A DNA stretch of 64,000 nt from Ignavibacteria bacterium (GCA_025612245.1 JAAXKQ010000006.1:186001-250000), one strand, 5' to 3'; positions 55,824 through 63,231 are shown, counted from the first letter of the stretch. Notes: generated by a model not told the origin, from the sequence alone. Numbers and translations: made by a program.

Positions 55824-57020
55824 TTAAAAGTTGTACGACACGTTAAGAGTATATGCAAGAGTTCTTTTCCCTTCTTTTAAGCCCACGTAAGGAGCCATGG
55901 AAGAGACTGTACCGTTTGCAATTGAAGACTGGTCGAATTTTACCATAAGAGGTAGAGAACTGCTTATGACCTTTCCAACAGGAAGCTCAACTCCAAATCC
56001 ATAAGTCGTTCCCTCTACGCTTTTAGGAAACCTGTAGAAGTCCATGTTATCCCTTGTCTCCTTGAGCCATCCGCCCCTCAGGGAAAGCATCTCCAGAATT
56101 TTAATTTCGGCACCGAACGAATACCTGGTAAAATACTTTGAATTCAGGAGGTCCTGGTATTGCGCTGAGATAATGGCACTTATCAGCCGGAAGTTTCCTG
56201 ATATAAGACCGGGCCTGATTTCATAGGCGGCCGCAAGCCTCATTGCCGAAGGCAGGTAACTGCCGGTAATATCTTCGCCAGGCAGATAATACGGCCTGAG
56301 ATCTATCACGTGATCCCTTGAGTCTTCTTCAATTTCTATGTTTTCATACCGGCCTAGAATAAACTGGGCGGCAATTCTATTGTCCACGTCGGTTTTAATC
56401 TTGGAATTAGACACGTTCGAGAAACTTAAGCCTAAAGTAAGCTCGTGCCCCAATATAGCGTCTCCGAATGTAAGTTTATTCATCAATCCCGCATCCAGTG
56501 TCCATGCAGTTCTCGACAGTCTGCCCGATTCATCATCAAAGTAGTTCAGATTTATTCCGGCTTTCAGCCCCTCAAAGATATTACGCGAGTAATTGATGGA
56601 ATAAATGTTTGAATATGGGCTGGAAGGCTCGGCAAGTGAAATAAGGTTTTCCCCGGTATTCATCACCTTGAAGCCCCAGCTGAAATGCATGAAGTTAAAG
56701 CCCAGGGCGCCAAACTTGCCGAGGTTAACCCCTGCCCCGTAGGTGTCGTAGTTGGCTTTGACTCCATAAAGGAAGGTAAATTCAAGGTGTGAAATCTGTG
56801 TACTTGCACCTTCTGCCGAAAGGGATGAAGCCGCCGGGTTAAAGATGTTCATGAAGGGGCTTCCGCCGAGGGCCGCGCTCCCTCTTCCCATAGCCTCAGT
56901 CCTTGCATCAGGCTGGTTTAACAGAAGCATCTGGATTGCCTCACCCTTATAGATCTGCGCCTTAATGCCTGAAAAAGCAAAGAAAGCTCCGGCAAGAGCT
57001 AATAACAAAATTCTCCTCAT
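55824..57020 (-). CDS. PorV/PorQ-family outer-membrane protein
   Basis: This 398-aa barrel of the PorV/PorQ (UPF0164-like) family is associated in Bacteroidota with the type IX secretion system. The signal (LLLALAGAFFAFSGIKAQ) is followed by the signature start DARTEAMGRGSAALGGSPFMNIFNPAA, rich in Gly/Ala with the MGxA pattern. The barrel ends TLAYTLNVSYNF with a terminal Phe. ATG 57020 has GGAGGAG upstream. No other T9SS gene is nearby, so only the family can be asserted. Confidence 0.85.
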   Translation of the reverse strand: MRRILLLALAGAFFAFSGIKAQIYKGEAIQMLLLNQPDARTEAMGRGSAALGGSPFMNIFNPAASSLSAEGASTQISHLEFTFLYGVKANYDTYGAGVNLGKFGALGFNFMHFSWGFKVMNTGENLISLAEPSSPYSNIYSINYSRNIFEGLKAGINLNYFDDESGRLSRTAWTLDAGLMNKLTFGDAILGHELTLGLSFSNVSNSKIKTDVDNRIAAQFILGRYENIEIEEDSRDHVIDLRPYYLPGEDITGSYLPSAMRLAAAYEIRPGLISGNFRLISAIISAQYQDLLNSKYFTRYSFGAEIKILEMLSLRGGWLKETRDNMDFYRFPKSVEGTTYGFGVELPVGKVISSSLPLMVKFDQSSIANGTVSSMAPYVGLKEGKRTLAYTLNVSYNF

Positions 57021-57171
57021 GGTTATCTCCTCCAAAATCCTAGTCTTTAGTTATGGGAATGGGGTAATAAATGAGCCGGAAAGATAGGGAAATTTGTACT
57101 AAAAATCCCGGTTGAGTTAATTTCTCACAGCTCAGCCGGGTGCATAAAAAGGTATATTGCAGGGTAGTTTT

Positions 57172-59085: not shown

Positions 59086-60510
59086 TTAGAACCTGTAAGA
59101 TACTGAAAGGATGAGGTTATGGTTACGAATGTCCTGGTAAGTCCGGGATTCATTATTGCCATAGTTTTCGCCGATATCTTTCCACCATCCGTATGCATAG
59201 GCAAGATCGAAAGCAAAAGCTTCATCGGCCAGGAAACCGACACCGCCCGTTACGTACTTTCTATTCCTTTCTGAAGGATCCCCCTCGTAAGGTGACGGAT
59301 TCATTATAAAGCCACCTCTTAAGCGCAGGTTAACCTCTGGAATTGTATATTCAGCTCCCAGGTTGTAATTAACAACTCCGCGGTAGGTAGTCTTTATGTC
59401 CTTATTGTTGGCGCTCATTGTGCCTGCATCCAGCCCGCTCTTAAATTCCATCTGTGTAAAATCTATGTAAGTCACGTCCCCGCTTAATATAAGTCCCTTC
59501 AGGTTTACCGAGGCGCCGCCAGAGAACTGGTAGGGTGAGCTAATGTCGTACTCTGATGTACTGACATTCTGGAAATCCTGGAAAGGAAGATAAGTTGCAT
59601 TGGCAAATGTGCTTTGACCATTGACAGTATAAGTTTCCTTGATAGTATAAGAAGTCGGGAATTTTATGCTGGCGCCAATTCTTGCCATGGGGCTTACCTG
59701 ATATATAAAGCCTATCTTCGCATCCCAGCCCGAAATATCCCAGTCAAGAACGTCGTTGAAATAGAACTCCCTGAAGTCCGCCGTTGTTGAATCTGCCGGA
59801 TCTGTCAGAACGTTAAATCCGTATGCGTTTTTTGTATCTGTTTCGTAATAATCCCTTGAGCTGTTATAGCTTCCGGAAATAATATTTAATGTGGCACCAA
59901 GATAAATATTTCTGGCAACTTCAATGGCTCCTGAAAAAGACCACCTTCCGATGCCGCCTTTGGAAAGGATAGTGCCATCCTGGTTCAGATTACCTCTGAT
60001 GGGGGTATTACCGTTCTGGTCCGTAAGGCCGAGTTCATAGAGGATTTCATCTCCGGCATTATTTGCGATCATTGAAGAATTGGGGTTAAAGCCGTTAAAG
60101 CTCACAGCGCCGTTAAAATCCCTGTCCCTGTTATATCCAACCGCAAAAACGAGGCTTCCCCTGATTGTAGGGAAAGGAAATGCAAAGCTGAGCTGGTTAA
60201 GGTTTGTTGCGCTGTTCGAATAATCTGTAGTATTCCCGAAAAACGTGGTGCTGTTATTTTGTTTCGAATAATTAAGGCCGCCGGCAAATTCCATCCTTTT
60301 CAGCAGTCCGAAGCCTGCGGGATTAAAAGATGCCGCCGAGTAGTCGTCGCTTAAAGACTGGTATGCATTTCCCATACCAAGAGCCCTGGCGCTTGAGCCG
60401 AGGCCAATGTCGGAAAGCCGGAATGCATCAAGAGGAATTTGGGCACTCACCGCTCCGGCAAAATAACTAAAGAATAATAAGAGTGCCAAACTTAAAGCTG
60501 TATGTTTCAT
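59086..60510 (-). CDS. OmpP1/FadL-family outer-membrane barrel
   Basis: This 474-aa barrel has a signal (LALLLFFSYFAGAVSAQ) and the FadL/TodX-type start GLGSSARALGMGNAYQSLSDDYSAASFNPAG. The last residues NLILSVSYRF fit a barrel end. FadL family members pass long-chain fatty acids or aromatic hydrocarbons through a lateral or axial opening. ATG 60510 follows the upstream stop TAA directly, with GGGAGAA before it, so translation is coupled to the CxxCH lipoprotein gene. Substrate not known. Confidence 0.8.
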   Translation of the reverse strand: MKHTALSLALLLFFSYFAGAVSAQIPLDAFRLSDIGLGSSARALGMGNAYQSLSDDYSAASFNPAGFGLLKRMEFAGGLNYSKQNNSTTFFGNTTDYSNSATNLNQLSFAFPFPTIRGSLVFAVGYNRDRDFNGAVSFNGFNPNSSMIANNAGDEILYELGLTDQNGNTPIRGNLNQDGTILSKGGIGRWSFSGAIEVARNIYLGATLNIISGSYNSSRDYYETDTKNAYGFNVLTDPADSTTADFREFYFNDVLDWDISGWDAKIGFIYQVSPMARIGASIKFPTSYTIKETYTVNGQSTFANATYLPFQDFQNVSTSEYDISSPYQFSGGASVNLKGLILSGDVTYIDFTQMEFKSGLDAGTMSANNKDIKTTYRGVVNYNLGAEYTIPEVNLRLRGGFIMNPSPYEGDPSERNRKYVTGGVGFLADEAFAFDLAYAYGWWKDIGENYGNNESRTYQDIRNHNLILSVSYRF

Positions 60511-61200
60511 TTATCTTCTCCCTGAATTGCTTGATCTGCCCCCTTCGTTATTTCTGGATTTGGGCTGTTCGTTTGAATTCTTGTTTTCAGAAGAGCTCCT
60601 GGTCTCATTCCTGTTTTGATTTGTGTTATCTCCATTCTGCACGTTTGCAGGCGTCGTTGAACCGCCGCTTCCGCCTGAAGAGCCGCCAGGGTTTCTACCT
60701 GCAGGTGGTGGTGGAGGTGGAGAGGGTAATTGTCCTGTTCTTGTCTCGCCGCTCCTTCCGCCTTCCTGATCGCGGCTTTTCCCGTTATACTGTATTCCTT
60801 GTCCATCACGTCTATCTCTTGTCCTTGAGGTTCTTTCCGGAGGAGTGATATTTGACCACCAAGGTTTCTGGTAATAAAATCCATAATCGCCGTAGTACTG
60901 AGTGGGATAGTAATACTGGCCGGTATAATATTCCTCGGAATAGTATCCTTCATCCAGAAGCACCTCATCTTCCTCGTGGGCTTTGAACATCGACAGGTGC
61001 TCGCTTTGCGTCATATTTCCAGGCCTGTCCGTACTGGTATGACAGCTGGCGCAGTCGTCATAAAAATAAACCTTGCTGTTGTAAGTATAGCCGTTTTCAT
61101 CCTTTGCCTGAACGTCCGGATGCTCAACCACGGTATAGCATCCGCTAAAGGCGGAAAGTGCCGCGGTTAGTACAACGGGTATATAAAATCTTAGTCTCAT
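60511..61200 (-). CDS. lipoprotein with a single CxxCH motif and disordered tail
   Basis: I do not recognise a family. The 229-aa lipoprotein has signal RFYIPVVLTAALSAFSG and lipobox FSGC. The mature start CYTVVEHPDV is followed by VYFYDDCASCHTSTDRPGN, a c-type haem motif CASCH, about 45 residues from the N-terminus. Tyr-rich stretches (EEYYTGQYYYPTQYYGDY) follow. A Pro8-rich stretch (LPSPPPPPPAGR) leads to a Ser/Gly/Asn/Arg-rich tail ending NSGRR. No methionine ligand can be identified by eye. It starts three bases after the aromatic-rich lipoprotein gene stop and ends against the FadL-like start. Confidence 0.75.
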   Translation of the reverse strand: MRLRFYIPVVLTAALSAFSGCYTVVEHPDVQAKDENGYTYNSKVYFYDDCASCHTSTDRPGNMTQSEHLSMFKAHEEDEVLLDEGYYSEEYYTGQYYYPTQYYGDYGFYYQKPWWSNITPPERTSRTRDRRDGQGIQYNGKSRDQEGGRSGETRTGQLPSPPPPPPAGRNPGGSSGGSGGSTTPANVQNGDNTNQNRNETRSSSENKNSNEQPKSRNNEGGRSSNSGRR

Positions 61201-61203
61201 TGA

Positions 61204-62286
61204 TTACCTTCTTCTTCCAGTGCTATTTCCGCCGTTGTTCCTGGACTGCGGTGCGTTTCCTTCCCTTGAACCACTGCTGGAGCCTCTGGACTGTGGTGGA
61301 TTATAGCTCCTGTTCTCAGTTCCTCTTGATTCCCTGTTTGGAGGATTGTACTGCTGCGTTGGAGGATTGTACTGTGGCGGGTTCCCGCCCCTCTGTTCAG
61401 GTCTGTATGTGCCGTTATAGTTCCTTCTTCTGTCGTTACCTTCTCTGTTGCCGTTACGATTCTGATCAGTATTCCTGCTGCCTTCATTACGTGGGCGCGT
61501 ATAACTTCCGGAATTTGTCCTCTGCCTGTCACGCCTGTAAATCGGCTGCTGGCGCTTTTCAGGAGCATTAGTGTTCCCTTTTCTTAAAGTCGTCTTACCC
61601 TGCTGCTGCTCTCTGGTGCTTATCGAGCCGTTTCTGGTCTTAGGAGCCATGTTGGTTCTGGTATCCGTTTGAGTTCTTGGCTTAAAAAGACTTCTTCCCG
61701 TGGTATTTCTTGTAGGCGAAAGGAGATCTCTGTTCCTTAAACCGGCCGTACGACCGCCTTCACTTAATCTCGACTTCGGGTAATTGCGTGAAGGTGTATT
61801 GTATGTATACCAGTTTCCCCATCCGTAGTTATGCCCATAATGCGGATACCAGTATCCGTAGCCGGGGCCGTAATAATATGAGGGATAATAGGAGAACGGA
61901 TCGCTGTACCAGTAATTGTCGTACCAGCCTGACCAGTACCATGGAGAATACCATGGGTCGCCCCATCCTACAGAAATTCCTATATTAACGCCCGGATGGT
62001 AGCCCCAGTAATACCTTCTGTAAAATGGACGGTAAGAATCACCAATGTAATAGTTGTTAATTATCGCGCCGTCTGGATAATCACCGCCGGCATAGTATGT
62101 CGTATCCTCCGACTGGTAATTATCCCCATAAACACTGTCCCTCTGACTGTAGGAATCTTCATAATCTCTTTCATGGTACCTTCTGGAGTACCGGCCGTCA
62201 TCCGTAGCGACCTGTGTGTAGCACCCGTAAAATCCGGCAAAAGAGACAAGAAGGATCGTAAAGATTAAATAATTAAAATTTTTCAT
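61204..62286 (-). CDS. aromatic-rich lipoprotein with Arg/Asn-rich tail
   Basis: No known family is recognised. The 360-aa lipoprotein has signal NYLIFTILLVSFAGFYG and lipobox YGC. About residues 24-155 are extremely rich in Tyr, Trp, Gly, Asp and Ser (for example WYSPWYWSGWYDNYWYSDP and PSYYYGPGYGYWYPHYG). From about residue 170 on, the protein is Arg/Asn/Thr/Gln/Gly-rich (REQQQGKTTLRKG, GSRNTDQNRNGNREGN) and ends STGRRR. Such composition suggests an intrinsically disordered, possibly sticky or self-associating surface protein. It is first in the tightly coupled operon with the CxxCH lipoprotein and the FadL-like barrel. Confidence 0.75.
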   Translation of the reverse strand: MKNFNYLIFTILLVSFAGFYGCYTQVATDDGRYSRRYHERDYEDSYSQRDSVYGDNYQSEDTTYYAGGDYPDGAIINNYYIGDSYRPFYRRYYWGYHPGVNIGISVGWGDPWYSPWYWSGWYDNYWYSDPFSYYPSYYYGPGYGYWYPHYGHNYGWGNWYTYNTPSRNYPKSRLSEGGRTAGLRNRDLLSPTRNTTGRSLFKPRTQTDTRTNMAPKTRNGSISTREQQQGKTTLRKGNTNAPEKRQQPIYRRDRQRTNSGSYTRPRNEGSRNTDQNRNGNREGNDRRRNYNGTYRPEQRGGNPPQYNPPTQQYNPPNRESRGTENRSYNPPQSRGSSSGSREGNAPQSRNNGGNSTGRRR

Positions 62287-62442: not shown

Positions 62443-63231
62443 TTAGAAGATTGGATTCACAAATTGTACATTTAATGCACGGTCAGCCGTCCCGGCATTG
62501 AGTTTTTTATTATTCAGCAAGTCCCTTAAGTCAAAGCCTACAGTAAAATTCTCGCTCAAAGTCCACCTGATGCCGGCATTTAAGTACCCGCTGCCATCGC
62601 CCAGGGCACTTGCCGTGTTGTCATTTATTGCGAAATCGTATTCCGCAATAAATGATAGCCTTGAACCGATTGTCTTTTCAAAACCTACGGAAAGGTTAAG
62701 ATCCTTGTCGCCATCTTCACCTTCAAGAGAGTAGTTCATTGTGCCGTGAAGGCTTAAATAGCCGAGGAACTGGAAATTTTTCGATACCGAACCGTAAAAT
62801 CCGGGGGATTTCACCTGGAAGCGGTTGACATCCTTGCCATTTATTTTTTTTACGAACTCTCCTTTTCCCTGCGAATCGAAACCAAGGGCAATTCCGGGAA
62901 CCCCGTCAGTTTCATCAAATAGCTTAACCTTAAGCATAACACCAGGCAGTTTATACCACAATGGCCTTCCGCTGCCGATAAAGTTTGCAGCCCCGTAAGA
63001 GATACCGAAGCTGAAATCCTTAAATGCCCCAACTTCAAGCCTGGAGATAAGCACTCCGGAAGGCATCATATAGAAATTTACGCCCACATGACCCTTATCC
63101 AGTACTCCTGCCGTTGGCACATCAATCAGATATTCAGATTCATTCTCTGCTTCCGAACCGGCCATTCCCTGCGGGAAAACCGCAGCAGGCAATAATAAGA
63201 CAAATAATATTAAAACTGCTTTAAGCTTCAT
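62443..63231 (-). CDS. YjbH-like outer-membrane protein
   Basis: This 262-aa protein has a signal (AVLILFVLLLPAAVFPQ) and strands with DVPTAGVLDKGHVGVNFYM near the N-terminus, a pattern seen in YjbH/DUF-type exopolysaccharide barrels. The rest is alternating strands (FSFGISYGAANFIGSGRPL, GYLSLHGTMNYSLEGEDGD, YLNAGIRWTLSENFTVGFDL). The terminal FVNPIF ends in Phe. It lies 156 bp upstream of the aromatic-rich lipoprotein gene in the same direction. The family link is weak. Confidence 0.6.
   Translation of the reverse strand: MKLKAVLILFVLLLPAAVFPQGMAGSEAENESEYLIDVPTAGVLDKGHVGVNFYMMPSGVLISRLEVGAFKDFSFGISYGAANFIGSGRPLWYKLPGVMLKVKLFDETDGVPGIALGFDSQGKGEFVKKINGKDVNRFQVKSPGFYGSVSKNFQFLGYLSLHGTMNYSLEGEDGDKDLNLSVGFEKTIGSRLSFIAEYDFAINDNTASALGDGSGYLNAGIRWTLSENFTVGFDLRDLLNNKKLNAGTADRALNVQFVNPIF

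Follow-up and report, generated by a model that had tools for sequence, protein, structure and literature searches.

The core of the gene set described here consists of a FadL-fold outer-membrane barrel and an aromatic-rich lipoprotein (A) encoded directly upstream of it, and the linkage of these two genes is our main result. A second lipoprotein (B), which carries a CxxCH motif in some lineages, is an optional third gene. The set lies in a window of 64,000 nt from an Ignavibacteria genome (G000, contig 44), where it occupies positions 59086–62286 on the minus strand. Gene A (61204–62286, minus strand) encodes a lipoprotein of 360 aa, a homologue of which is found upstream at most barrel loci. 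It is followed by gene B (60511–61200, minus strand), encoding a 229-aa lipoprotein in which CASCH is followed by PWW and then by a basic tail of low complexity, and by the barrel gene (59086–60510, minus strand), encoding a predicted FadL-fold outer-membrane barrel of 474 aa. The original prediction had described three minus-strand genes spaced by 3 and 0 nt, the first two encoding lipoproteins of odd composition, one of them with CASCH, and the third a FadL-type barrel. This description is confirmed throughout: the open reading frames are separated by 3 nt (61201–61203) and 0 nt, the signal peptides of A and B both end in GCYT, the lipobox cysteines being Cys22 of A (62221–62223, minus strand) and Cys21 of B (61138–61140, minus strand), CASCH is present in B, and the third gene scores above the Pfam Toluene_X cut-off and is predicted to adopt a FadL-type fold. 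The arrangement is found again in far more than 100 genomes and so is not the product of chance. We found no description of an A-B-barrel set in the open literature on Ignavibacteria, FadL, tyrosine-rich lipoproteins or hemin receptors.

Conservation of the A-barrel pair

Barrel homologues (E ≤ 1e-30) occur in 207 of the 294 Ignavibacteria genomes, almost always as a single copy, and in 57 of the 58 genomes of the order to which the window genome belongs. Locus counts were taken from 133 barrel neighbourhoods within the class, and A lies directly upstream of the barrel in 121 of the 124 with enough flank. This count combines 118 loci recognized by a simple rule with three recognized by inspection, as A can be seen in three of the six loci that failed the rule despite an upstream flank of 1.5 kb or more; the remaining 9 of the 133 loci end too soon upstream, at contig ends or at the limits of the stretch examined. 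Retention of the FadL gene alone in related genomes had been named in advance as evidence against a coupled set, and the opposite is observed, A almost always adjoining the barrel. Seven other FadL-family genes inspected in the window genome have no A-like neighbour.

The pairing extends beyond the class. A profile search with the barrel recovers related proteins elsewhere in the phylum, and an aromatic-rich secreted protein is encoded directly upstream of the barrel in 36 of the 40 loci examined there, among them all 20 of a second batch. Nearly all of these upstream proteins contain a lipobox and end in a low-complexity tail, mostly a basic one; in some lineages (L217, L233, L235, L236 and L237), the aromatic-rich protein shows a signal peptide and no evident lipobox cysteine. 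In a phylum that includes major bacteria of the gut and the environment, the A-barrel pair matches core envelope machinery in the steadiness of its conservation. Its barrels outside the class presumably resemble proteins annotated as 'hemin receptor' or 'outer membrane transport protein'. A 'putative hemin receptor' of the PG1626 type, listed as Bacteroidetes-specific (PMC1887533), is likewise an annotated FadL-type outer-membrane protein (about 550 aa) that is widespread in the phylum, and it is possibly a member of the same family; the name 'hemin receptor' is itself only an annotation.

The composition of A is as distinctive as its position: an acidic start gives way to a Tyr/Trp-rich middle and then to an Arg-rich, low-complexity tail ending in GRRR. 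Averaged over 118 homologues, the first half contains 28% Tyr/Trp/Phe, while the second contains 19% Arg/Lys and 60% Ser/Gly/Asn/Pro/Gln/Thr. Behind the lipobox cysteine, 25% of residues over positions 2–40 are Asp or Glu, and an acidic stretch at this place is a feature of surface export signals in Bacteroidota. As judged from composition, A may be suited to contact with a membrane surface, glycans or matrix. It belongs to no Pfam or NCBIfam family, and its homologues give just two single-member Pfam matches, which look like chance; the PDB search was made with B and the barrel only. A basic C-terminal tail is common to the lipoproteins of the cluster, including A, B, the small lipoproteins of L016, L017, L023 and L024, and others; at least two Arg/Lys are found among the last four residues in 108 of 118 A and 44 of 48 B proteins versus 142 of 841 other open reading frames. 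Motifs resembling RNxDGGRN also recur.

The barrel and its likeness to BamG

The barrel passes the Pfam cut-off for the FadL family (Toluene_X, PF03349; 41.2 versus 29.7 bits), and 35 of 41 barrel homologues match the same model at E ≤ 0.001. Its AlphaFold2 model (pLDDT 91.8, pTM 0.85) has a FadL-type fold, for which the best PDB match by Foldseek is BamG of Bacteroides thetaiotaomicron (9hiv_F; E 3e-20, TM 0.69 by target), followed by E. coli FadL and then by P. gingivalis BamG. FadL and TodX both match with a probability of 1.00 and TM scores of about 0.5–0.67, and in a profile search of solved structures, TbuX and TodX come first with BamG among the best. The Foldseek scores of BamG and of true FadL transporters are close, so that a transport role is conceivable.

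Two features of the barrel recall BamG in particular. The predicted strands at residues 175–199, 202–224 and 246–273 are 23–28 residues long and resemble the long-stranded extracellular pillar with which BamG docks a surface lipoprotein (PMC12611786). The second feature is an N-terminal tail, comprising mature residues 1–39 before an NPA motif (60325–60441, minus strand) and bearing the signature Q1-x3-D5-A-x-R8. The tail has this length in 126 of 133 class sequences, in which NPA begins at residue 40, and within the tail, D5 is kept in 127 and R8 in 124 of 128. The corresponding start is residue 33 in E. coli FadL, where the N33A and P34A mutants lie, and about 42–44 in BamG, and the tail is thus 7 residues longer than that of E. 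coli FadL. BamG threads its lengthened tail through the side opening, which serves FadL in transport (PMC12578637, PMC12611786), and by analogy the length of the tail argues for a plug of the side opening in the window barrel. Compared to FadL and TodX, then, the fold and the C-terminal half of the sequence are held in common, whereas the longer tail with its near-invariant Q1/D5 tip and the fixed lipoprotein partner are differences.

Although its model looks structurally like BamG, the window barrel is not BamG. The NCBIfam BamG model (NF053685) is its best curated match, yet the score is 54.5 bits against a cut-off of 250, and a far better candidate exists in the same genome: a 412-aa barrel scoring 237 bits, just under the cut-off, is encoded directly after a lipoprotein with a DNRLRE/CBM-like domain (L127:7964–10401; G000 contig 15), as expected of a BamH-BamG pair (PMC12611786). 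Because the window barrel scores low and this likely true BamG sits elsewhere beside its BamH-like neighbour, the reading in which the barrel is the organism's BamG and A and B are lipoproteins of the BAM complex is largely refuted and very improbable, even with BamG as the nearest solved fold. Identity with PorV, the FadL-family component of the type IX secretion system, was also rejected; 39 of 41 barrel homologues match the PorV/PorQ model (NCBIfam NF033709), but the window barrel scores 40.7 bits against a cut-off of 90, and its structural match to PorV is much weaker than that to BamG (E 8e-8 versus 3e-20).

Barrel-lipoprotein pairs are already known in SusCD, BamGH and BamG2H2, and the set can therefore be regarded as a variant among them. 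With BamG-BamH of the Bacteroidota BAM complex (PMC12611786, PMC12578637), it has in common the FadL-fold barrel, the lengthened and conserved N-terminal tail, the long extracellular strands and the pairing of a barrel with a putative surface lipoprotein, the bamG/bamH-like genes of the window genome also being neighbours. Unlike BamH, A and B lack a CBM-like match and are low-complexity proteins, aromatic or basic in character. BamG2-BamH2 of B. thetaiotaomicron (Bt1785/Bt1786; PMC12578637) is similarly a second FadL-type barrel that lies outside the main BAM complex and whose gene shares a putative operon with that of a lipoprotein; BamH2 is a folded BamH paralogue and A is not.

Lipoprotein B and its CxxCH motif

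B is present at 48 of the 133 class loci, and 29 of these 48 proteins contain CxxCH, where 'no B' means no CxxCH or PWW protein between A and the barrel, a definition that may overlook a small number of divergent B genes. In all 17 genomes with a match to B (P0002), the barrel gene adjoins it. The CxxCH-bearing proteins are distributed over families f1, f2, f11, f13, f18, f19 and f22 of the class, and three further loci outside it, all of family f50, encode a B with CxxCH and HP. The 19 proteins lacking the motif are all of family f3, and nearly all belong to one clade. The original prediction had anticipated co-occurrence of all three genes in many related genomes with CxxCH conserved. Co-occurrence in many genomes is indeed observed, as is CxxCH in at least seven class families and one outside, but B is absent from most loci, and conservation of the motif holds for most B proteins and fails in the large f3 clade. 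The deepest split of the barrel tree (midpoint root) separates two groups that both contain CxxCH-bearing loci, and the B proteins without CxxCH cluster in a single clade next to the family of the window. Together with the three f50 sequences from outside the class, this distribution suits an old gene that was lost many times, with one loss of the CxxCH motif. In some genomes, an extra small lipoprotein of about 105–110 aa, often proline-rich, is encoded directly before the barrel gene (L010:5642–5962, L015:5672–5998, L016:5648–5965 and L023:1172–1498), where it replaces B or follows it.

The CASCH sequence of B (residues 50–54; 61039–61053, minus strand) is a candidate covalent haem site, read directly from the sequence and placed in an exported protein by the lipoprotein signal peptide. 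In an alignment of 29 CxxCH-bearing B proteins, C50, C53 and H54 are invariant, the homologues having been chosen for the motif; the only other invariant residues are the lipid-bearing cysteine, Tyr22, Pro28 and two tryptophans. A candidate distal ligand is His27 (His7 of the mature protein; 61120–61122, minus strand), which lies in the sequence CYTxxxHPxV. This histidine is present in 23 of the 29, and the other six, all of family f19, have Met6 instead, whereas it occurs in just 1 of the 19 B proteins lacking CxxCH. A c-type haem usually has His or Met as its distal ligand. The association of His7 with CxxCH gives a Fisher p of 6e-7, a value that treats kin sequences as independent and so overstates their independence; counted as events, the pattern comes down essentially to one loss (the f3 clade) and one switch.

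Cytochrome c maturation proteins (PF01578) are encoded in all 76 genomes tested, many of them of CcmC and CcmF size; ResB (PF05140) is an unsuitable marker of maturation here. Because these genes are also present in genomes that lost CxxCH, they do not discriminate between the two kinds of B, and their ubiquity makes haem attachment to B possible without proving it. Loss of CxxCH by way of a loss of haem maturation is ruled out by the same count. None of the 29 B proteins belongs to a Pfam family, and NCBIfam likewise yielded no significant match for B. The structural model of B is poor (pLDDT 55), its formed parts being a hairpin at residues 30–42 and a short helix at the motif (51–54), and it gave no fold match in the structure search. 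Seven of the eight matches of the B profile in the PDB are c-type cytochromes, with none significant (E 0.05–0.9). Taken together, the motif and its co-varying His or Met suggest that B probably carries a single c-type haem near the membrane surface in some lineages.

A proposed surface complex and its alternatives

A BamGH-like complex of lipoprotein and barrel at the cell surface is indicated by the regular occurrence of A beside the barrel, by the long strands and plug-like tail of the barrel and by the acidic start of A, which resembles an export signal. We propose that the locus encodes an assembly on the outer face of the outer membrane in which the FadL-fold protein would serve as a scaffold, with the N-terminal tail lodged inside it and probably also in its side opening, on the pattern of BamG. 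Lipoprotein A would be anchored at this barrel on the outside of the cell; its aromatic region would lie close to the membrane, and its Arg-rich, disordered tail would extend into a surface glycan or matrix layer. The role of the complex would be in the envelope or matrix. In some lineages, B would join the same barrel and hold a single c-type haem, bound via CxxCH near the lipid anchor of B and with a distal ligand provided by His7 or Met6. We consider a complex of the barrel and A alone likely, while for the full arrangement, BamGH-like but distinct and with a haem-bearing B in some lineages, we regard the case as evenly balanced. If such a complex is real, it would add a new surface-lipoprotein/barrel assembly to the few known (SusCD, BamGH, PorV), give a testable meaning to the widespread 'hemin receptor'-type annotation and contain one of the smallest candidate c-haem sites, set beside a lipid anchor.

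The barrel could instead be a working FadL-type transporter of hydrophobic compounds, with A capturing or presenting substrate through its aromatic surface and B acting as a redox helper. The placement of the barrel in the FadL family by Pfam, the ranking of TbuX and TodX in the profile search and the aromatic-rich partner all fit this reading. We nevertheless find it unlikely, as the tail exceeds that of FadL by 7 residues and its tip is invariant, which recalls BamG, a barrel that does not transport, the window barrel's family is near-universal and single-copy across lineages, and no catabolic genes were noticed beside it in the neighbourhoods inspected. Uptake of hydrophobic compounds, as originally suggested, finds nothing specific in its favour. 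The other function put forward at the outset, a surface unit for electron transfer or extracellular redox chemistry, draws on the CxxCH with its co-conserved His/Met and on the presence of haem maturation genes, but it is improbable given that the A-barrel pair occurs far more often without CxxCH than with it. Porin-cytochrome conduits of the MtrCAB type also combine an outer-membrane barrel with a CxxCH lipoprotein; unlike them, the set has a single CxxCH in all three genes, with no multihaem chain to cross the membrane through the barrel, as well as a FadL-fold barrel and a dispensable haem gene. Since most loci lack B and the f3 proteins lack CxxCH, redox chemistry is not the core function and is at most an add-on to the A-barrel pair.

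A narrower alternative concerns B itself, in which CxxCH might bind zinc or form a disulfide, leaving B as a structural lipoprotein. CxxCH plus a histidine could also bind zinc, the ordered segment around the motif is very short in the model, and the f3 homologues do without the motif; the histidine after CxxC is, however, kept in 29 of 29 sequences, and the other conserved position alternates between His and Met, both of them usual as distal ligands of haem. We regard this alternative as doubtful, though it deserves to be kept in mind. Returning to the proposed surface complex, a bolder extension is that the pair constitutes, alongside BamGH and PorV, a third kind of machine built from a FadL barrel and a surface lipoprotein, present almost throughout the Bacteroidota and serving to organise the cell surface, and that in Ignavibacteria and one outside family it includes a miniature single-haem lipoprotein that could act on its tyrosine-rich partner, for example by oxidative cross-linking. 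We offer this extension speculatively and think it rather unlikely to hold in full.

Neighbouring genes

A 262-aa predicted outer-membrane protein with sub-threshold similarity to YjbH is encoded 156 nt upstream of A (62443–63231, minus strand). A homologue is found upstream of A in 54 of 60 class neighbourhoods and, outside the class, in L199, L200 and L212, and the gene probably forms its own transcription unit. Downstream of the barrel gene, a TonB-like protein (P0005; 58157–58948, minus strand) with a weak match to the TonB C-terminal domain was considered as a member of the set and set aside, no homologue lying near the barrel in the related loci examined. Further along, a barrel resembling the PorV/PorQ family (55824–57035, minus strand; 66.9 bits versus a cut-off of 90) is encoded immediately downstream of an rsgA-like gene. 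A cysS-like gene lies further upstream of the 262-aa neighbour in the window as well as in L113, L139 and L155.
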